From Deltaproteobacteria bacterium (GTDB taxonomy: Bacteria > Desulfobacterota > BSN033 > UBA1163), in assembly GCA_018333535.1 (NCBI GenBank), contig JAGXTA010000091.1, positions 1 to 36,764 of the forward strand: a DNA stretch of 36,764 nt. The letters run 5' to 3'. Below the pieces are notes generated by a model. It did not search any database and was not told the origin of the DNA. It was given only the letters and a program-made list of their open reading frames with translations. This document shows, piece after piece, positions 899 to 13,962 of the stretch. The first letter of the stretch is position 1. Each line of letters starts with the position of its first letter. A program made the position numbers and the translations under genes.

Positions 899-2683
899 AT
901 GGAAAAGTTAAAAAATTTTGATGCCCAATTAGTACTCAATTCTATTTACAACGGCATTATAGCGATTGATTCAGAAGGCATGATCACCTATTTCAACAAA
1001 ACAGCAGAAAGAATTTTTAATATCCCTGCTCATGAAGCCATGAATCGATATATCTTGGATGTCCTGCCAAATACCGGCGGTAAATTGCTCGATTGCTTGA
1101 AAACTGGAAAGCCATTTTATGGAGAGAAACTCAAAGGGCAAGAAGTTACCCTTATCTCCAATATAAATCCGATTGTGACGAACGGGAAAATCTCAGGGGC
1201 CGTAAGTTTCTTCCAAGACATTTCCGAAATTGAAAGTATCTCAAAAGAGCTTGACTTATTTAAGAATATGAAAAATTGGTTAGATACCATTATCGATTCG
1301 TCCTATGACGGTCTATGGATTTGTGACCACCAAGGCAAAGTCATCAGAATCAATAAGGCATCTGAAAGGATCAACGGGGTCAAAGCCGAAGAGGTGATTG
1401 GCAGGAATATGAGGGAACTGGTGGCAGAGGGCTTATGCGACAAGTCCGTTACTTTGGAGGTGTTGAAGAAGAAAACTTCTGTAACAATGATTCAACAGAT
1501 TAAAGGAGAGAAAAGGATCCTGGTCACAGGCAATCCAATTGTTAATGAAAAAGGGGAAATCACATTTGTCGTTACAAATGATCGTGATATTACTGAACTG
1601 GACGATCTGAGAAGTCAACTTCAAGAGATTCAGGCATTGGCCAAAGGTTATATTTCGAAGCTATCTGAATTAGAGATGCAAGGGGTTGACATAAAAAGTA
1701 TCATTTTTCGAAGCGAGGAAATGAAAAGAATCATTGAGATGGCCTTAAGGGTGGCTCCAGTCGATACAACCGTACTTCTTTTAGGGGAATCAGGTGTAGG
1801 TAAAGGAATAATTGCAAAACTGATTCACAAACACTCGGAACGGGGCACTGGACCCTTCATACGAGTCGATTGTGCAGGTATTCCAGACTCTCTCATTGAA
1901 TCGGAGTTATTTGGTTATGAAAAAGGCGCATTTACCGGGGCTAAGGTCGAAGGGAAACCCGGGTTCTTCGAACTCGCTAATAAAGGAACACTTTTTCTTG
2001 ACGAAATTGGAGAAATTACATTAAGTTCCCAATCAAAGCTTCTCCGCTTTTTAGAGGACCATGAAATTATCCGGGTTGGAGGAACAGAACCTAAAGAAAT
2101 TGATGTAAGGGTGATTGCGGCAACCAATAAGAACATTGAAGAGATGGTAAAGTCTAAAGGTTTCAGGGAAGACCTTTATTATCGACTCAATGTGGTTCCC
2201 ATCCATATCCCGCCCTTAAGAGAAAGACGGGAGGATATTTTACCTCTGATCTTTCATTTTCTTGAAAAATTCAATAAAAATTATCGAAAGGAAAAGGTTC
2301 TTTCTCCAGAGGCGATTGAAACCCTTTGCAAATATGACTTTCTAGGAAATATTCGTGAACTGGCTAATATTATAGAAAGGCTTGTTGTGATAACAGAAAA
2401 TGAGTGGATTGAAGCGCGAGATCTCTCAAATGCAATTGCAAGCTGTAATTCCAAGGAAATACCCTACTCTTTCTTAGCCGAAGGTATTTCACTCAAAGAT
2501 GCCCTGCAAAAATGTGAGAGCATTATTATTGAAAAGTCTATTAACAAATATGGTTCTCAGCGGGAGGCAGCAAAAGCTTTAAAGGTAGATCAGGGAACAA
2601 TTTCAAGGAAAATTAAGAAGTTTTCAATATCGAAAAAAGATGTATTGATGCATAATGAATTGCATTTACGCATCAAATATTAA
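899..2683 (+). CDS. Sigma-54-dependent transcriptional regulator with two PAS domains and TyrR-like HTH
   Basis: The 594-aa protein is a bacterial enhancer-binding protein that activates sigma-54 RNA polymerase. Two PAS sensor domains (about 10-115 and 125-235) precede an AAA+ domain with Walker A GESGVGKG at 296-303, the sigma-54 contact loop GAFTGA at 343-348 and Walker B GTLFLDEI at 363-370. The C-terminus (about 545-580, KYGSQREAAKALKVDQGTISRKIKK) resembles the TyrR/PhhR-type helix-turn-helix rather than classic Fis. GAGGGAGA upstream of the ATG is the ribosome site. No phosphoreceiver domain is present, so it probably senses a small ligand through PAS. It stands immediately before the aminotransferase/carbamoyltransferase operon, which carries a candidate sigma-54 promoter, and is the likely local activator. 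Confidence 0.92.
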   Translation: MEKLKNFDAQLVLNSIYNGIIAIDSEGMITYFNKTAERIFNIPAHEAMNRYILDVLPNTGGKLLDCLKTGKPFYGEKLKGQEVTLISNINPIVTNGKISGAVSFFQDISEIESISKELDLFKNMKNWLDTIIDSSYDGLWICDHQGKVIRINKASERINGVKAEEVIGRNMRELVAEGLCDKSVTLEVLKKKTSVTMIQQIKGEKRILVTGNPIVNEKGEITFVVTNDRDITELDDLRSQLQEIQALAKGYISKLSELEMQGVDIKSIIFRSEEMKRIIEMALRVAPVDTTVLLLGESGVGKGIIAKLIHKHSERGTGPFIRVDCAGIPDSLIESELFGYEKGAFTGAKVEGKPGFFELANKGTLFLDEIGEITLSSQSKLLRFLEDHEIIRVGGTEPKEIDVRVIAATNKNIEEMVKSKGFREDLYYRLNVVPIHIPPLRERREDILPLIFHFLEKFNKNYRKEKVLSPEAIETLCKYDFLGNIRELANIIERLVVITENEWIEARDLSNAIASCNSKEIPYSFLAEGISLKDALQKCESIIIEKSINKYGSQREAAKALKVDQGTISRKIKKFSISKKDVLMHNELHLRIKY

Positions 2684-2898: not shown

Positions 2899-2990
2899 TC
2901 CACATTCTAATTACTAAAAGTTTTTGAATATTAAAAAAATCTCTAACCTGCCCCTACCAGAAGGGGGGGAAGGGTTTATTTTTTTTGATT

Positions 2991-4295
2991 ATGAAAACAA
3001 ACGGTTCATTGCTGTCTGAAAGAAACCAGCATATTCCACAGGGGCCATTCAATGTCCACCCCATTTTTGCTGCAAAGGCAAAAGGGGCGATTATCACCGA
3101 TGTGGAAGGGAAAGAGTATATCGATTTTGCAGGGGGCATCGGTGTAAACAATGTTGGCCACTGCGATGAAGAAGTGCTAAAGGCTGTCCAGGATCAAATT
3201 CAAAAATATATTCACACCTGTTTCCATGTGGTCATGTATGAACCTTATGTAGAACTGGCAAAAAGACTGAATGAGATCACCCCGGGAAATTTTCCAAAAA
3301 AGACGATGTTTGCAAATAGCGGTGCAGAGGCCGTTGAGAATGCCATCAAGATTGCCCGTCATGCCACGGGCCGACCTGCTATCATTGCATTTGAAGATGC
3401 CTTTCATGGCCGAACCCTTTTAGCCTTAAGCTTAACCAGTAAGATGAAACCTTATAAATTTGGTTTTGCGCCTTATGCTCCGGAGATTTACCGAATGCCT
3501 TATGCCTATTGCTACCGATGCGCTTTCGGTCTGGAATACCCTTCTTGTGAAATTCATTGCGCCTATTTTCTAAGAGATTTTTTCCAAACTCACATCTCTG
3601 CCGAACAGGTGGCGGCTTTGATTGTGGAGCCGGTATTGGGTGAAGGGGGATTTGTTGTTCCACCTAAGGAGTATTTCAAAATCCTTCATAAAATCTGTCA
3701 GGACAATGGAATCGTTTTCATTGCCGATGAGGTTCAGACCGGTTTTGGCCGTACTGCAAAGATGTTTGCCATGGAGCATTATGAGGTAGCGCCGGATATT
3801 CTGGTAACAGCCAAATCCATTGCTGGAGGATTTCCTCTCAGCGCCATCACCGGAAAGGCAGAACTAATGGATCATCCCCAGGTAGGAGGGTTGGGAGGAA
3901 CCTATGCAGGGAATCCCGTGGCCTGTCGGGCTGCCCTTGCGGTGCTTGATCAGTTTGAGAAGAAGGATCTCTTAGCGAGAGCTGAGAAAATTGGAAAAAG
4001 GGTCTTAGAAAAGTTCAAGGAATTTCAAGAGGACTATTCAATGATGGGTGATGTCAGGGGTTTAGGGGCAATGGTAGGAATGGAACTGGTGGTGGATCGA
4101 AAGACCAAAGAGCCAGCTACAGCTTTCACAAAACAGTTGGTGAATCATTGTCGTGAAAAAGGATTATTAATGATCTCCGCCGGTACTCACTCAAACATTA
4201 TCCGACCATTAATGCCTTTGGTGATTACAGATGATCAATTGGAAGAGGGCTTGAAAATTATTGGAGAGGTCTTAGATGAAGTCGGTCAATCATGA
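2991..4295 (+). CDS. gabT: Class III PLP-dependent aminotransferase (4-aminobutyrate aminotransferase-like)
   Basis: The 434-aa protein is a fold-type I, class III transaminase of the GabT/ornithine-delta-aminotransferase group. It has the PLP Asp in ADEVQTGFGRT (D246), the Schiff-base Lys in VTAKSIAGG (K275), the NSGAEAVE phosphate-binding motif and the FHGRT motif. A TTG at 2985 is an alternative start that lies closer to the purine-rich AAGGGGGGGAAGGG ribosome site. Residues 174-190 hold a four-cysteine pattern (C-x2-C-x8-C-x3-C) that recurs in the second class III aminotransferase of this window. It is the first gene of the putative sigma-54 operon and overlaps the next gene by 20 bases. 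Likely role: moving the amino group of a terminal amine (GABA, ornithine or similar) to 2-oxoglutarate or pyruvate; the precise substrate is unknown. Confidence 0.85.
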   Translation: MKTNGSLLSERNQHIPQGPFNVHPIFAAKAKGAIITDVEGKEYIDFAGGIGVNNVGHCDEEVLKAVQDQIQKYIHTCFHVVMYEPYVELAKRLNEITPGNFPKKTMFANSGAEAVENAIKIARHATGRPAIIAFEDAFHGRTLLALSLTSKMKPYKFGFAPYAPEIYRMPYAYCYRCAFGLEYPSCEIHCAYFLRDFFQTHISAEQVAALIVEPVLGEGGFVVPPKEYFKILHKICQDNGIVFIADEVQTGFGRTAKMFAMEHYEVAPDILVTAKSIAGGFPLSAITGKAELMDHPQVGGLGGTYAGNPVACRAALAVLDQFEKKDLLARAEKIGKRVLEKFKEFQEDYSMMGDVRGLGAMVGMELVVDRKTKEPATAFTKQLVNHCREKGLLMISAGTHSNIIRPLMPLVITDDQLEEGLKIIGEVLDEVGQS

Positions 4296-4596
4296 AGGAT
4301 TCAGTGATCCGATTGGGAACATCCCTCTGGATGACGAGCACGCTCATATTCTCATAGAATATTACGAGAACGCGACATCTCTTCGCCTGCTGATTGAAAC
4401 CATCGAAATAAGCGGAGCGAAGATCCTTGAGACCATCCCCCTAAGAGAGGAACCAGGTGGTCCAAGATCGGTTCTCTTTAAGCTCTATGTTGAGGACGCC
4501 AGGAATGCGGTCATCAGCCTTTCAAAGCATCCTTTGGCCAACCTGAAAGGATACAATGCGAAGTCAAAGATTGCCCAAAAAAGGAGGAACCGATGA
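4276..4596 (+). CDS. Small 106-aa protein, possible ACT-like ferredoxin fold
   Basis: I do not recognise this family. It has its own ribosome site (GGAGAGG) inside the 3' end of the aminotransferase gene, overlaps that gene by 20 bases and overlaps the following carbamoyltransferase gene by ATGA, so it is translationally coupled on both sides and very probably real. The order of predicted elements (strand HAHILIEYY, helix TSLRLLIETIEIS, strand AKILETIPL, strand RSVLFKLYV, helix ARNAVISLSK, strand) is beta-alpha-beta-beta-alpha-beta, the layout of ACT and related ligand-binding domains. An allosteric or accessory subunit for the neighbouring carbamoyltransferase or aminotransferase is a reasonable guess, based on fold impression and coupling only. 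Confidence 0.7.
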   Translation: MKSVNHEGFSDPIGNIPLDDEHAHILIEYYENATSLRLLIETIEISGAKILETIPLREEPGGPRSVLFKLYVEDARNAVISLSKHPLANLKGYNAKSKIAQKRRNR

Positions 4597-5531
4597 GAGA
4601 CAAATTCAGAGGGAAAGATTTTCTAAGTTTGATGGATTTTACCCGGGAGGAAATCAATGATATTTTGAACGTCTCTTATGAACTAAAGATGAAGTGGGCA
4701 AGGCGTGAACTCCACGAATATTTGAGAGGAAAGACGGTTGCCGTCATCTTTGAAAAACCCTCTACTCGAACCCGTACCTCTTTTCAGGCGGCCATTGCCC
4801 ATCTCGGGGCACAAAGCTTCTATATGCGTCCTGATGAAATGCAGTTAGCTCGAGGGGAACCAATCAAGGATACAGCTCGGGTCATTGATCGGTACTGTGA
4901 TGCCCTGGTGATGAGAACCTTTGGACAGGATCGGCTTGAAGAGTTTGCCCGATATATGAAAAACCCAGTGATCAATGCCCTTTCCGATCTGACTCACCCT
5001 TGCCAAGGTTTGGCGGACCTCTTGACCATCCGAGAGAAGAAAGGAGACTTTAAGGGGTTAAAACTTGTCTATGCGGGCGATATCTGGAATGTCTGCCACT
5101 CTCTCATGATTGCTGGCGGGACCATGGGATTCGATGTCTACGTGGCCGTTCCCGAGGGATATGCCCCCAATCCAAAGATTCACCAGTTTGCCATGGAGGC
5201 TGCGAAACGGAGTCGAACGAAAATTGTCCTCACGAAAGATCTAAAGGAAGCGTTAAAAGATGCGGATGTGGTTTATGCCAATACGTGGCATAGCATGGGC
5301 GCGGCTGAAAAAGAAAAGGAAAAGAGGGCTAAGGATTTTGGGCCCTATCAGATCAACGGAAAGGTGGTGGAGGAGGCAAAGCCTGATTTTATTTTCATGC
5401 ATTGTCTGCCCGGATATCGTGGGGAAGAGATGACCGATGAGATCATTGAGGGCCCCCATTCTGTCGTGTGGGATCAGGCTGAGAATCGAATGCATACGGA
5501 AAAGGCGGTCCTAGCCCTGTTTGTAGGATGA
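4593..5531 (+). CDS. argF: Ornithine carbamoyltransferase-like enzyme with altered amino-substrate residue
   Basis: The 312-aa length and motifs are those of OTC: carbamoyl-phosphate site STRTRTSF (57-64), HPCQGLADL (135-143), the amino-acid loop SMG (234-236) and HCLPG with the catalytic cysteine (270-274). The enzyme interconverts carbamoyl phosphate plus an amine with a ureido compound plus phosphate in the cytoplasm. Unusually, the family's D-x-W-x-SMG element reads N-T-W-H-S-M-G, so the aspartate that binds the alpha-ammonium of ornithine (Asp231 in E. coli, Asp263 in human OTC) is Asn230. Strong ribosome site (AAGGAGG); ATGA overlap with the preceding small gene. Carbamate kinase follows, favouring a catabolic, ATP-yielding direction. 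Substrate could be citrulline or a ureido compound without an alpha-amino group. Confidence 0.85.
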   Translation: MRDKFRGKDFLSLMDFTREEINDILNVSYELKMKWARRELHEYLRGKTVAVIFEKPSTRTRTSFQAAIAHLGAQSFYMRPDEMQLARGEPIKDTARVIDRYCDALVMRTFGQDRLEEFARYMKNPVINALSDLTHPCQGLADLLTIREKKGDFKGLKLVYAGDIWNVCHSLMIAGGTMGFDVYVAVPEGYAPNPKIHQFAMEAAKRSRTKIVLTKDLKEALKDADVVYANTWHSMGAAEKEKEKRAKDFGPYQINGKVVEEAKPDFIFMHCLPGYRGEEMTDEIIEGPHSVVWDQAENRMHTEKAVLALFVG

Positions 5532-5564
5532 AAAAGTTGATCCATAACGTTTAGTTGGAAACGG

Positions 5565-6515
5565 ATGAAGAAGCGGATTGTGATCGCCTTAGGTGGAAAT
5601 GCGATTAAGCAGCCTCATGAGTTGGGGACAGCCCAGGAACAGATGAAAAATATCAAGAATTCGTGTCAACAGATACTCCAAATCATCCAAGCGGGCTATG
5701 AAGTGGTATTGACGCATGGAAATGGTCCACAGATAGGAAATCTTCTTATCCAGCAAGAAACGGGAATTCCCCAAGTTCCGGTTCAACCCATGGATATTTG
5801 TGGTGCTATGACTCAAGGCCAGATTGGATATATGGTACAGCAGACGTTGGTCAATGGATTGAAGACTTACAATCTGAATCTCAACGTGGTCACAGTGATC
5901 ACACAGGTCTTGGTCAATCGGGAAGATCCGGACTTCAGGAGTCCGAGCAAACCCATAGGCCCATTTTACGACCAAGAAACGGGAAAAAGAAACCAGTCCG
6001 AGAAGGGTTACCAGATCAAACAGGTACTCCCAAATGGGGAAAAGCCTTTCCGTAGGGTGGTCCCTTCCCCTGATCCGATAAGGATATTGGAAGGAAAAGC
6101 GCTGAAACGGCTCGTCGATGCCGGGATGATTGTCATTGCTTCAGGAGGAGGAGGGATCCCTGTCACTTTGAATGATCGTGGAGAACTGGAGGGGGTGGAG
6201 GGAGTGATCGACAAGGACCTGGCAGGGGAGAAACTGGCAGAAGCCGTGGGCGCGGATATCTTAATGATCCTCACGGATGTGAATAAGGTTAAACTTGGGT
6301 TTGGTACCCCAGAAGAGAAAGATTTGGATAAGATAGATGTTAATCAAGCGAAACGCTATTTAAAAGAGGGCCATTTCCTACCAGGGTCGATGGCTCCCAA
6401 AATCTCAGCCTGTTTACGGTTTATTGAATACGGCGGGGAAAAGGCTATCATTGCCTCATTGGATAAATCTTGGGAGGCCATTCAGGGGCAGGAAGGCACA
6501 CATATCATTCCATGA
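5565..6515 (+). CDS. arcC: Carbamate kinase
   Basis: The 316-aa protein matches ArcC along its length: IALGGNAI at the N-terminus, LTHGNGPQIGNL, QPMDICGAMTQGQIGYM, RRVVPSPDP, IASGGGGIPV, GVEGVIDKDLAGEKLA, LTDVNKV and a C-terminal GSMAPKI. It transfers phosphate from carbamoyl phosphate to ADP, giving ATP, ammonia and CO2. It lies 33 bases after the OTC-like gene and overlaps the next gene by ATGA, so the carbamoyl phosphate released by either transcarbamylase can be captured for energy. The carbamate kinase motifs are intact, in contrast to its two transcarbamylase neighbours. Confidence 0.95.
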   Translation: MKKRIVIALGGNAIKQPHELGTAQEQMKNIKNSCQQILQIIQAGYEVVLTHGNGPQIGNLLIQQETGIPQVPVQPMDICGAMTQGQIGYMVQQTLVNGLKTYNLNLNVVTVITQVLVNREDPDFRSPSKPIGPFYDQETGKRNQSEKGYQIKQVLPNGEKPFRRVVPSPDPIRILEGKALKRLVDAGMIVIASGGGGIPVTLNDRGELEGVEGVIDKDLAGEKLAEAVGADILMILTDVNKVKLGFGTPEEKDLDKIDVNQAKRYLKEGHFLPGSMAPKISACLRFIEYGGEKAIIASLDKSWEAIQGQEGTHIIP

Positions 6516-7474
6516 GGATGGAGAGTATGGTACTCCACCATATAGTCGAAGCTCAGCAGTTTAATAAGAAAACCCTTCAGGAAATATTTATCTTTGCAGA
6601 CCGTGTTAAAGAACGTATAGAGCGTGGGTTTCCCCTGGAACTTCTTCGTGGAAAAATCTTAGCCAATCTTTTTTATGTTAAATCCATTCGAACCATGTTC
6701 TCTTTTGAGACCGCCATGAAACGGCTGGGGGGTGAAGTCATAGGGACTGAAAGTGGAGAAGCCTTTTCTTCCGAACTTGTAGGAGCAACCCTCGAAGATA
6801 CTGTAAGAATGGTCGGTTCATTCGTTGATGTCATTGTCCTCAGACATTATCAGAGTGGCTCAGCAAAACGTGCTGCGGAGGTCTCCCCTGTCCCAATTAT
6901 CAACGGGGGGGATGGAGCAGCTCAGCATCCTACGCAGGCGATTGTCGACCTATACTGCATTGAAAAGTTAATGGGAGGAGTGGATGGGGTTTCGATTGCC
7001 TTCCTCGGCAACTTGATGAATAGTCGGACGATTCGCTCCCTCGTTTATTTCTTAGCTAAATATTCAGGCATTAAAATATATTTCGCCTCCCCAAGAACCC
7101 TGAAGATGAAAGATGACCTTAAGGAATACTTGACCGAACATCGAGTTTCTTTCTCAGAATCCTTTGACAGTGCAGAGGATCTGATGGAAATTGCTTCCAA
7201 GGTGGATATTCTATATCTAACCCAGATACCTGAAGATCATTTTGGAGACCGTATTTGCGATTATGATAAATATAGGGAAATCTTCAGAATTAATCAAAAT
7301 ATCTTGAATAGGTTGAGGAAGGATACGTTCATCATGCATCCCTTCCCACGGGGTGATGAACTTCCGGTCCAAGTGGACAAAGACCCTCGCGCCATCTACT
7401 TTGATCAGATCAAGTATGGACAATTCCTCCGAATGGGCCTATTATGCTATGTGCTTGGAGTGAGGGTGGATTAG
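6512..7474 (+). CDS. Aspartate carbamoyltransferase-like protein with non-canonical active site
   Basis: The 320-aa protein aligns with the PyrB catalytic chain over its whole length, including SFETAMKRLGG (64-74), LRH (110-112), GDGAAQHPTQAIVDL (133-147), the SRT arginine (R172) and MHPFPRGDEL (275-284). Several catalytic positions differ from E. coli PyrB: STRTR is SIRTM (58-62), the KK of the 80s loop is LV (89-90, loss of catalytic Lys84), and TRVQ is TQIP (237-240, loss of aspartate-binding Arg229). It therefore probably uses carbamoyl phosphate and a different acceptor, or serves as a structural partner. The ATG overlaps the carbamate kinase stop; further in-frame ATGs at 6518 and 6527 are possible starts. 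No pyrI-like regulatory chain is adjacent, and the location is not a pyrimidine operon. Confidence 0.8.
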   Translation: MRMESMVLHHIVEAQQFNKKTLQEIFIFADRVKERIERGFPLELLRGKILANLFYVKSIRTMFSFETAMKRLGGEVIGTESGEAFSSELVGATLEDTVRMVGSFVDVIVLRHYQSGSAKRAAEVSPVPIINGGDGAAQHPTQAIVDLYCIEKLMGGVDGVSIAFLGNLMNSRTIRSLVYFLAKYSGIKIYFASPRTLKMKDDLKEYLTEHRVSFSESFDSAEDLMEIASKVDILYLTQIPEDHFGDRICDYDKYREIFRINQNILNRLRKDTFIMHPFPRGDELPVQVDKDPRAIYFDQIKYGQFLRMGLLCYVLGVRVD

Positions 7475-7572
7475 AGGAGAGGAATTGGAAGGGAGGTGAT
7501 GAAATAAACTTTTTCGTGCCCTAAGTGAAAGAAATAATCCAAAATGCTTTCAGAGATTGGTTCTCTCTTTTT

Positions 7573-7608
7573 CTTCGTCCTCCCTTGGTAAAGCAAAGGA
7601 GGACGAAG
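7573..7608. repeat. Hairpin overlapping a ribosome-binding site
   Basis: CTTCGTCCTCC at 7573-7583 and GGAGGACGAAG at 7598-7608 are exact 11-base reverse complements with a 14-base loop. The right arm contains the Shine-Dalgarno (AAGGAGG) and the first base of the GTG start of the following remnant, so the stem would hide the start site in RNA. No T-run follows, so it is a poor intrinsic terminator. Confidence 0.5.
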
Positions 7609-7721
7609 TGAGAATAGGACTCCACGGGCCTTTTAGTGCACCGGTTGCCTACTCTGGCGAGTTGATGAAAAAGGGGTTTTTGTTGGCCGTTGAAGAGATC
7701 AATAAGGCAAGAGGGGGATGA
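7608..7721 (+). pseudogene. ABC amino-acid binding protein, N-terminal remnant
   Basis: From GTG at 7608, behind a good ribosome site, 37 codons read VRIGLHGPFSAPVAYSGELM and on through [15 protein letters not shown] to TGA. This is the start of a periplasmic branched-chain-amino-acid-type binding protein (Peripla_BP_6 fold), normally about 350-400 aa. A signal peptide is missing. The similarity ends at the point where the tail of a carbamoyltransferase begins in another frame, so this is one side of a deletion junction. Confidence 0.55.
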
Positions 7722-7815
7722 TGATGTAATAGAAGGAGAGCAATCCGTGGTATGGGATCAGGCCGAAAACAGGCTTCATAAAGAAAAGGCAATATTATCT
7801 TTAGTAGTACCATAA
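7720..7815 (+). pseudogene. Second ornithine carbamoyltransferase, C-terminal remnant
   Basis: This frame encodes [18 protein letters not shown], then [13 protein letters not shown] and TAA. It matches the last 31 residues of the intact OTC-like enzyme of this window ([18 protein letters not shown]..). It is fused, one frame off, to the binding-protein remnant, and ends 23 bases before the DDAH-like hydrolase gene. The natural reading is that a second OTC gene stood directly upstream of the hydrolase and was lost by deletion. Confidence 0.75.
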
Positions 7816-7838
7816 ACGCAAGATAAAGGAGAAAAACT

Positions 7839-8681
7839 ATGTGGGTAAACAGCGAATATAAAAGGCTGAAGACCGTCCTCCTGTGTAAGCCAACCTTTTA
7901 CAGGATCCTTCCCATCAACCTCACAGCCAAGAAATACATAGAGTCTGGCCAACTTCCAAATATTCACAGGGCAATAGAAGAGCACGAGGAGTTGGTTCGG
8001 ATATATGAAAATTTCGGTGTTGAAGTGATTATGATGGAACCGGATCCTGATCTGCCCTACCAAACATTCACGAGAGATTTTGCATCTATGACTCCTAAGG
8101 GCGCGGTGATCTCCCGCATGCACGTGTCAGAGAGGCAAAGGGAGCCTGTCGTGGGCGCAGATATACTTGTTGAACACAGCATTCCTATTGCTGGTTTTAT
8201 AACGAGGGGGACATGTGAGGGGGGAGACTACATGTTTCTGGATGAGCATACCCTTGTCGTCGGCTGTGGAGGAAGATCGAATAGTGAGGGTATACAGTAC
8301 TTGAAAGATATGTCGCCGCGTTTGGGTCTCGAAATAATTCCAGTTATGTTCCATGGTGATTTTGTTCATATGGATTGCGTTGGAAACATCATTGGCGAAA
8401 AACTGATTATCGCATGCCTCGATGCTCTTCCTGCGAGCTACGTCGATATCTTAAAGGAGCGCCACTTCACGATAATCAATATCCCGGCTGCGTCTGTTCC
8501 CGATCTAAGCGCCAATGTTATGGCTTTGGATGAAAAGACCATACTAAGTCATGCATCAAATAATAGAGTGAACGATGAGCTCAAAGCGCTTGGTTTCGAG
8601 GTTCTTACTGTAAACATCCCTGAACTTCTAAAAGCGGGCGGAGGAATACATTGTAATGTTTTTCCAGTGCAAAGGACGTAA
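7839..8681 (+). CDS. DDAH / arginine deiminase-like guanidino hydrolase
   Basis: The 280-aa protein belongs to the guanidino-group-modifying (amidinotransferase-fold) superfamily. Visible active-site elements are FTRD (D80), CEGGD (E127-D130), VHMD with the catalytic His (H177) and the terminal GGGIHC with the nucleophilic Cys (C272). Members hydrolyse arginine, dimethylarginine or related guanidino compounds to ureido products through a covalent thiouronium intermediate. Its length fits the compact DDAH type rather than the roughly 400-aa ArcA. Good ribosome site (AAAGGAG). The OTC tail directly upstream and the carbamate kinase operon before that suggest it supplies the ureido substrate (citrulline or an analogue). 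Exact specificity is not readable. Confidence 0.8.
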   Translation: MWVNSEYKRLKTVLLCKPTFYRILPINLTAKKYIESGQLPNIHRAIEEHEELVRIYENFGVEVIMMEPDPDLPYQTFTRDFASMTPKGAVISRMHVSERQREPVVGADILVEHSIPIAGFITRGTCEGGDYMFLDEHTLVVGCGGRSNSEGIQYLKDMSPRLGLEIIPVMFHGDFVHMDCVGNIIGEKLIIACLDALPASYVDILKERHFTIINIPAASVPDLSANVMALDEKTILSHASNNRVNDELKALGFEVLTVNIPELLKAGGGIHCNVFPVQRT

Positions 8682-8704: not shown

Positions 8705-8825
8705 TAGTGTAGTGTCTCATGAATGGCTGGAGTTATTTACATGTAAATTTATAGGCCAAGACCTTCTAATATTACGCAAATACTTAGGAGGAAATACCTC
8801 CAGTTGTTTAAGAGACACTACACTA
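8705..8825. repeat. Roughly 121-bp inverted-repeat element (MITE-like)
   Basis: TAGTGTAGTGTCTC at 8705-8718 is exactly reverse-complemented at 8812-8825, and the match resumes at CTGGAG after eight mismatched bases, giving imperfect 27-28-base terminal arms. The interior contains a small GGAGG/CCTCC stem. It abuts the IS256-family relic and could be the end of an insertion sequence or a non-autonomous derivative. No clear target duplication was seen. Confidence 0.5.
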
Positions 8826-9425
8826 GTGGTGACGCTACAAGCAAGTGGGATACATGACACTATAGGGAAGAAGAACATCGTTGGGCTATGGCAGGGGGCC
8901 ACAGAGAATGCCACTGTCTGCACGAACCTTTTAAATGACACGGAGAGGCGCGGGCTGGACATGGGGAAGGACTACCTTTTAGTGCTTGATGTCTCTAAGG
9001 TGCTGAGGTCAGCCGTGGCGAGGAAGTTCGGGAGCAACTTCCGCATGGCGGATTACGATAAGGCAAAGGAGTCCCTTGATTTGACCAAAAGGTATCTGGA
9101 GAGGCTTAATCCGTCTGCGGCGGCGAGCCTGAGGGAGGGGCTTGAGGAAACACTCGCGGTGCATTGGTTATGCGTCAACAGGGCTTTTAAGGAAGACCCT
9201 CTCGACCACAAACCCGATTGAATCCCGTTTCTCCATAACCTGCAACATCACTGGACGGGTGAAAAAATGGAACGGCGGGGATAATATGGTTCAGAGATGG
9301 ACAGTGACAACACTTTTTTCAAGGCAGAGAAGAAGTTCAAGCGCATAAAGGGCTATAGGGAAATCCCAAAACTCATAGCTGCATTAGGGCAGAAAAATTT
9401 TGAAAGAAAGGAGATGGTAGCTTAA
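8817..9425 (+). pseudogene. IS256 (mutator) family transposase relic, frameshifted and deleted
   Basis: Similarity starts near LVVTLQ, continues through KKNIVGLWQGATENATVC and GLDMGKDYLLVLDVSKVLRSA, and on to NPSAAASLREGLEETLAV; these are landmark motifs of IS256-type transposases. Near 9180-9200 the frame breaks: the expected LRKTLSTTNPIES continues in another frame, then the C-terminal AEKKFKRIKGYREIPKLI ends in a third frame at TAA 9425. The N-terminal third is missing and the expected middle region (HKRRNV motif) is absent. An open frame exists back to GTG 8712, but its first part is only the inverted-repeat element. Confidence 0.8.
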
Positions 9426-12716: not shown

Positions 12717-12936
12717 AGATTCGCGCATATCTATTTCTCTATCGTCCTCGGGAGGTGATGAATAAAATTAGTGGTCAATTAAATGGATAAGATTAAGCCC
12801 CTTTTTTATAACCCCCCCCTCATCACCCATTTACGGTGTTCCCAATGACCCATTTGCAAAACTGTTAAGTGGGAATATGGGGAGATCATTCAGCCAACTT
12901 TCACATAAGCATCTGACAAGAAAGGAGAGAGCTTTG

Positions 12937-13962
12937 ATGGAGAAAATAATTAATGTTGTTCAGTATGGCCTTGGCGCAATGGGGAGCTTGATGGTTCGGT
13001 TGGCCTCAGGCAAAGCTAACTTGGAGGTCGTTGGTGCGGTTTCGGCATCCGGAAGGTATTTAGGTGTGGACCTCGGCGAAGCTTCGGGGCTTGGGAAACA
13101 TCTGGGTGTTACCGTAAAATCATCCCTCGAGCAAGTGCTCGAGGAAACCAAAGCGGATGTGATATTGGATGCGACGGTGTCTACAATGACCGAACTTATG
13201 CCGGAGATTCTCCCCGCTATTCGGGCGGGGCTAAATGTTATCTCAGTAGCAGAGGAGCTGTCATATCCTTGGGAGCGGAGTCCTGATCTGGCGTCTGAGT
13301 TAGATCGAGCTGCAAAAGAACATGGAGTTACAGTCCTTGGCACAGGTTTAAATCCTGGCTTTTTGATGGATCTTTTACCACTTAATCTTTCAGGAATCTG
13401 CGGGTCTGTAACGGCCGTCCGGGTGAGGCGAGTGACTGATTTTTCAGTATACGGACAAAGCGTAATGAAACATATTGGAGCCAACTTGACACCTGAGGAG
13501 TTTGAACGTGGTCTTCAGAATCGTTCAGTAGTATTGCATGTTGGGCTTCCCGAGTCGATTCAGATGGTGGCCAGAGGACTCAATTGGAAACTTGACCAGC
13601 TAAAGGAGGACCGCCGCGCCTTGGTTACCCGTACCGATCGTTTAGCAGAGAGTATAAAGGTACAAAAAGGACGAGTATGTGGGTTTTGGCAAACGGCCCG
13701 AGGCCAGGCAAAAGGAAATACTATTGAGTTGGAAATTTATGGCATAATATTACCCAATCCTTCGGAGGACGAGGTTTCGCCTGGGACCTGGATTAAAATT
13801 GAAGGAGATCCTGGTATTAATGTGGCTATTTCTGGAGGTATTTGTCAAGCAGGAGGGTTAGGAACTGTGACACATGCAGTCAACGCAATCCCTTTGGTAG
13901 TTGATGCGAAGCCGGGGTTACTTACCGTGAGGGAATTGCCCGTGGCCTCTTGCCTCCCTTAA
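12937..13962 (+). CDS. ord: 2,4-diaminopentanoate dehydrogenase-like NAD(P)-dependent oxidoreductase
   Basis: The 341-aa protein opens with an NAD(P)-binding Rossmann motif (QYGLGAMGS, 9-17) and follows the DapB-like fold of amino-acid dehydrogenases such as 2,4-diaminopentanoate dehydrogenase of ornithine fermentation: ILDATVSTMTELMPEI, AGLNVISVAEELSYPW, GTGLNPGFLMDLLPL and a C-terminal TVTHAVNAIPLVVDAKPGL. I start at the ATG following AAGGAGAGAG; an upstream in-frame ATG at 12877 has no comparable site. Ornithine aminomutase and racemase genes, needed for the full clostridial pathway, are not in the window, so the real substrate may be another diamino acid. Context with transporter and arginine-type genes fits amino-acid catabolism. 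Confidence 0.75.
   Translation: MEKIINVVQYGLGAMGSLMVRLASGKANLEVVGAVSASGRYLGVDLGEASGLGKHLGVTVKSSLEQVLEETKADVILDATVSTMTELMPEILPAIRAGLNVISVAEELSYPWERSPDLASELDRAAKEHGVTVLGTGLNPGFLMDLLPLNLSGICGSVTAVRVRRVTDFSVYGQSVMKHIGANLTPEEFERGLQNRSVVLHVGLPESIQMVARGLNWKLDQLKEDRRALVTRTDRLAESIKVQKGRVCGFWQTARGQAKGNTIELEIYGIILPNPSEDEVSPGTWIKIEGDPGINVAISGGICQAGGLGTVTHAVNAIPLVVDAKPGLLTVRELPVASCLP

Follow-up and report, generated by a model that had tools for sequence, protein, structure and literature searches.

A carbamoyltransferase encoded in a 36,764-nt stretch of DNA from a Deltaproteobacteria bacterium (the window; contig JAGXTA010000091.1) belongs to a distinct clade that keeps the motifs of ornithine carbamoyltransferase (OTC) and has lost the aspartate that contacts the α-amino group of ornithine. 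We call this enzyme CT'. In our preferred reading, to which we assign a probability of about 0.48, CT' acts catabolically, as the carbamoyltransferase of an arginine deiminase (ADI)-like pathway that degrades a guanidino acid with no α-ammonium group, most likely argininate or its 2-oxo form.

The CT' gene is an intact open reading frame of 312 aa, the translation of which includes VVYANTWHSMGAAEKEK (Table 1). The first-pass annotation had reported, at 5259-5310, an Asn in place of the ornithine-binding Asp, and the alignment bears this out. Specifically, codon AAT at 5280-5282 encodes Asn230 in the local sequence VVYANTWHSMG and aligns with the Asp of YTDVWASMG in P. furiosus OTC (1pvv/1a1s), so that the DxxxSMG signature of OTC reads NTWHSMG; the aligned solved OTCs carry Asp. 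A proven OTC with Asn at this site was not found, the solved OTCs among the matches listed all having Asp. The carbamoyl-phosphate motifs SxRT, HPxQ and HxLP are present as STRTR, HPCQ and HCLP, as annotated, but the claim that the remaining motifs are intact overlooked three changes: GDGNN of OTC is GDIWN, with Trp165 replacing the first Asn; HCLPAHRGEE is HCLPGYRGEE; and one loop reads MRPDEMQ. In E. coli OTC, ornithine is contacted by D231, S235, M236, N167 and K53 (PMC4581275). Among the equivalents in CT', only that of D231 is lost, while N166, S234, M235 and K55 are kept.

CT' reaches 402 bits with the OTC model TIGR00658 (cut-off 281), a score that is blind to substrate. The AlphaFold model (pLDDT 87.5, pTM 0.89), in which the 274-279 loop is the sole segment with pLDDT below 50, matches P. 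furiosus OTC with a TM of 0.93. Furthermore, a homologue in G018, a genome from another family of the class, is 86% identical and also reads ANTWHSMG, indicating that Asn230 is not a sequencing accident. Between these two genes dN is 0.087 and synonymous sites are saturated, which indicates strong purifying selection.

Scanning with the variable middle segment of CT' revealed 19 further loci, including fifteen from Lactobacillales and one from an Actinomycetes MAG, with identities of 70% in Symbiobacterium, 67% in a Bacillota MAG and 57% in a Thermohalobacteraceae MAG. Genome searches added members in G824 and G830, and an E. mundtii plasmid carries another, annotated as an ornithine carbamoyltransferase, which is the only copy of this family among the plasmid and phage matches listed; the viral contigs searched held no relative. 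Nine of ten matches in the class of G411, and the single one in G884, are canonical OTCs by motif and were set aside.

The Asp of DxxxSMG is absent from every CT' member (0/23; N in 7, M in 15, V in 1) and present in 56 of 56 OTC or putrescine carbamoyltransferase (PTC) comparators, two of which are PTC-like rows. The loss of the α-amino contact, proposed at first for the window enzyme, is thus fixed throughout the clade. In addition, the position preceding the kept Asn, the first Asn of the OTC 'NN', is aromatic in all 23 members (W 3, F 3, Y 17); K55, N166, S234, M235 and G236 are likewise kept in 23/23; and R79, P80 and D81 are invariant within an RPDE[ML]Q loop. The 23 sequences form one side of a single branch with an SH-aLRT of 100 in a quick IQ-TREE run, for which the program warns of long branches meeting, and the clade has recurrent gene partners of its own. 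Because the aromatic residue and the RPDE loop are fixed, the aligned pocket looks like one with a new specificity rather than a relaxed one. The annotation had predicted a different or looser amine substrate; the first option gains support from the clade-wide loss of Asp and from the canonical argF kept in the genome, whereas the second finds no support in a pocket remodelled in a fixed way, with an aromatic residue beside the retained Asn.

CT' also differs from the described relatives of OTC. With OTC itself (ArgF/ArcB, TIGR00658) it shares the fold, SxRT, HPxQ, HxLP, the Lys of FxKxSxRT, Asn166 and SMG, and it departs from OTC in having N/M/V for Asp, W/F/Y for the first Asn of NN, the RPDE[ML]Q loop, its own clade and its own gene partners. 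In PTC (TIGR04384), a (Y/W)(G/W)(V/L/I) loop replaces SMG and Gln occupies FxQxSxRT (PMC4581275). PTC further keeps the Asp, and its C-terminus is longer; in all these features CT' shows the opposite state, and it scores 289 bits with TIGR04384 against a cut-off of 500, in agreement with the annotation that it is not PTC-like, although both enzymes stand among catabolic genes that include carbamate kinase and a deiminase. The 2,4-diaminobutyrate and 2,3-diaminopropionate carbamoyltransferases (DBTCase and DPTCase) resemble CT' in replacing the Asp of DxxxSMG, in their case by Thr/Ser, with SMG kept in DBTCase (PMC4581275). However, they carry HDLP and (T/S)RWQ(S/T)(M/T)G and lie in antibiotic biosynthesis clusters, whereas CT' has HCLP (23/23), NTWHSMG and catabolic neighbours with carbamate kinase. 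YgeW was ruled out on motifs or scores.

Table 1. Features of the window around the CT' gene
Feature	Position	Strand	Basis or remarks
PAS / sigma54-type regulator	899..2683	+	identified by sequence reading
Class III aminotransferase	2985..4295	+	GABA transaminase model, 554 bits, cut-off 507
106-aa protein, family unassigned, overlaps CT' start	4276..4596	+	0 Pfam/NCBIfam matches
CT' (label used here), OTC fold, undescribed family	4593..5531	+	Asn230, Trp165-Asn166, RPDEMQ, HCLPGYRGEE
NTWHSMG loop, Asn replacing Asp of DxxxSMG	5280..5300	+	translation, alignment
Carbamate kinase	5565..6515	+	TIGR00746, 394.7 bits, over cut-off
ATCase-like carbamoyltransferase	6518..7474	+	42% to the genome's own PyrB
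Fused gene remnants	7600..7815	+	ABC substrate-binding-like N-terminus, then C-terminal ~30 aa of OTC-family protein
Short arginine-deiminase/DDAH-like deiminase (ADI')	7839..8681	+	Cys272, R99, R146 kept
Fragment matching IS256 transposase model	8712-9221		profile match

In the window, a single-strand row runs from the regulator through the aminotransferase, the small protein, CT', carbamate kinase, the ATCase-like protein and the gene remnants to ADI', so that deiminase, carbamoyltransferase and carbamate kinase are clustered within 4593-8681. A 51% homologue of the regulator also lies upstream of CT' in G018, and homologues of the aminotransferase adjoin CT' in Symbiobacterium (L040; 56%) and G824 (L129; 43%). 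Just upstream of CT' in G018 is an ORF similar in size to the 106-aa protein (129 aa), the likeness being judged by eye only. Compared with the genome's own PyrB, the ATCase-like protein has TQIPEDH for TRIQKER in the aspartate-binding loop and SIRTM for STRTR, and has lost the Lys of the 80s loop; on these residues it would be no ordinary ATCase, yet not evidently inactive either. The OTC-family part of the remnants resembles CT', and this segment looks like what is left after the deletion of a transporter gene and of another carbamoyltransferase gene. Farther along, downstream of a TRAP transporter, 12877-13962 encodes a 2,4-diaminopentanoate dehydrogenase-like protein (325 bits, cut-off 400), a possible link to ornithine fermentation.

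Across genomes, the recurrent neighbours of CT' are carbamate kinase, ADI', D-2-hydroxyacid dehydrogenases of three kinds, and a class III aminotransferase with an aldehyde oxidoreductase (AOR). Carbamate kinase lies within or beside ten CT' clusters, ADI' is present in nearly all clusters with enough flank, and all three enzymes are also clustered at L042, L047, L054, L056, L128 and L129. The usual Lactobacillales order is a PucR-family regulator, CT', sometimes carbamate kinase, a YfcC-type permease, ADI' and a D-2-hydroxyacid dehydrogenase. The dehydrogenase adjoins ADI' in 14 Lactobacillales and Actinomycetes loci (47-64% to the L045 copy), while those of L129 and L103 are dissimilar (27-32%). 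The G824 row (L129) comprises a permease, CT', carbamate kinase, ADI', a LarA-family racemase, a D-2-hydroxyacid dehydrogenase, a class III aminotransferase and AOR; the 2-hydroxyacid racemase, seen in no other cluster, passes none of the NCBIfam cut-offs. L040 has CT', class III aminotransferase and AOR, and L041 has CT', ADI', two nitrilase-superfamily enzymes, a permease and an iron-containing alcohol dehydrogenase (Fe-ADH), an enzyme also found near CT' in G018. Neither LarA nor a D-2-hydroxyacid dehydrogenase was found in the clusters of the window and of G018; the G018 homologue of ADI', a weaker match, lies 18 kb from CT'. Sarcosine-oxidase/ThiO-like FAD enzymes occur near CT' in G018, where a PTC-like carbamoyltransferase with DVWWWIG replacing DVWxSMG also adjoins AOR (L101, 4819-5817). 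At L103 (G400), an ADI' homologue without a nearby CT' has as neighbours a D-2-hydroxyacid dehydrogenase, AOR, a PucR-like regulator and subunits resembling sarcosine oxidase.

At 280 aa, ADI' is of the ADI/DDAH type and scores 70 bits with the ArcA model TIGR01078 (cut-off 489), and the gene beside CT' in the window is hence not a canonical arcA. In M. arginini ADI, the substrate carboxylate is bound by Arg180 and Arg232 (PMC3474736). These residues align with invariant R99 and R146 of ADI', in which the catalytic Cys272 is also invariant; Asn155, a further ADI residue in contact with the amino/carboxylate end, is apparently not kept, as read from the alignment. Distant deiminase relatives on plasmids have gene contexts in which we found no consistent substrate; in Rhizobium sp. 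007 the partners of one such relative are an amidase and a class III aminotransferase. The Vagococcus elongatus CT' cluster holds a second deiminase (L050, 6195-6974), 22% identical to the window ADI', that looks DDAH-like.

The carboxylate side is kept in ADI' and CT' and the α-amino-reading Asp is lost in CT', which points to a guanidino acid without an α-ammonium group. Argininate is the best single guess, given that 2-hydroxyacid enzymes recur and are unlike one another. The sequences show the changed residues, the family, the partners that recur beside it and the presence of ordinary OTC and ADI in the same genomes; from these we infer in which direction CT' works, that it acts between the deiminase and the kinase and, with most latitude, what the substrate is. 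In the proposed scheme, ADI' would convert the guanidino acid to a ureido acid, CT' would phosphorolyse the latter to an omega-amino acid and carbamoyl phosphate, and carbamate kinase would use carbamoyl phosphate to make ATP. With argininate (2-hydroxy-5-guanidinopentanoate) or its 2-oxo form as substrate, the amino acid would be 5-amino-2-hydroxypentanoate. Clusters of the window type could then convert the omega-amine, by way of a semialdehyde, to 2-hydroxyglutarate or an alcohol with their aminotransferase and an oxidoreductase, either AOR or Fe-ADH, 2-hydroxyglutarate being the putative product of transamination and oxidation of 5-amino-2-hydroxypentanoate, while LarA and D-2-hydroxyacid dehydrogenase, where present, may act on the α-hydroxyl.

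The main rival, which we consider less likely, keeps the same deiminase-carbamoyltransferase-kinase pathway with 4-guanidinobutyrate, or another des-amino guanidino acid, as substrate. ADI' would give 4-ureidobutyrate, CT' would give GABA and carbamoyl phosphate, the aminotransferase would give succinic semialdehyde, and AOR or Fe-ADH would give succinate or 4-hydroxybutyrate. The loss of the α-amino contact with retention of the carboxylate side fits this route equally well, and the required enzymes adjoin or neighbour CT' at L040 (class III aminotransferase and AOR), L041 and G018 (Fe-ADH). Since the window has no 2-hydroxyacid enzyme and its aminotransferase scores as a GABA transaminase (Table 1), 4-guanidinobutyrate remains a serious rival, and for the window cluster it fits at least as well as argininate. 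However, the G824 aminotransferase falls below the same cut-off (421 vs 507 bits), and the route leaves three kinds of D-2-hydroxyacid dehydrogenases and the LarA racemase beside ADI' unexplained.

Ordinary arginine use is improbable: here CT' would be an OTC, perhaps a relaxed one, handling ornithine and citrulline in a second, catabolic arginine pathway, with Asn, Met or Val merely weakening binding. The score far over the OTC cut-off and the ADI-like and carbamate kinase neighbours agree with such a role, but ADI' is shorter than, and different from, ArcA, and the clade-wide loss of Asp comes with an invariably aromatic residue at the adjacent site. The window genome has a canonical argF, with Asp and NN, on another contig, which makes a different substrate the natural reading for CT'. 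Canonical OTC is over the cut-off in 14 of 16 carrier genomes, and in a fifteenth (G413) it lies in pieces on two contigs; canonical arcA is over the cut-off in 9/16. This co-existence argues against ordinary arginine use, with exceptions: canonical arcA was not found in carriers including G402, G408 and G412, and in G412, where CT' is the sole OTC match, it could serve ordinary arginine. Still less probable is another amine as the carbamoyl acceptor (β-alanine, the transcarbamylase of which a 2015 family review names as a possible undiscovered member; glycine or sarcosine from creatine, in view of the sarcosine-oxidase/ThiO-like enzymes near CT' in G018 and near the ADI' homologue at L103; a D-amino acid; or an opine-type N-substituted ornithine), as none singly fits the recurrent 2-hydroxyacid enzymes and omega-aminotransferase, and ADI' keeps arginine-type carboxylate contacts.

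Among 395 genomes of the phylum, only the window genome and G018 pass the family threshold, and in 16 genomes of the same genus or family we found no close CT' copy, the best matches being 46-51% identical. Together with the 86% identity to G018 and the IS256 fragment, this makes horizontal transfer the natural reading for the origin of CT' in the window.

Returning to argininate, the CT' clusters share with arcABC a deiminase, a carbamoyltransferase, carbamate kinase, often an exchanger-type transporter and, by prediction, ATP from carbamoyl phosphate. They differ in a short ADI/DDAH-type deiminase, in a CT' without the ornithine Asp, in added 2-hydroxyacid or aminotransferase enzymes, and in that the canonical pathway often co-exists. 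A search of the open-access literature found no paper that describes the PucR/YfcC/OTC cluster or the deimination of argininate. Nothing is new in the fold, the chemistry or the logic of the pathway; what appears to be undescribed is the specificity class together with its partners. A little more tentatively than the reading of CT' itself, we propose an undescribed ATP-yielding pathway for an α-hydroxy or α-keto arginine analogue, with a dedicated deiminase and a 5-amino-2-hydroxypentanoate carbamoyltransferase family, in Enterococcus, Streptococcus, Vagococcus and several less studied lineages. If this is true, ornithine carbamoyltransferase labels on such proteins, which score as that enzyme, would be wrong in enterococci and streptococci, and bacteria would have an energy pathway for argininate, a guanidino compound listed with the uraemic retention solutes (PMC8745165). 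CT' also offers a clean test of how one α-amino-reading residue sets carbamoyltransferase specificity.
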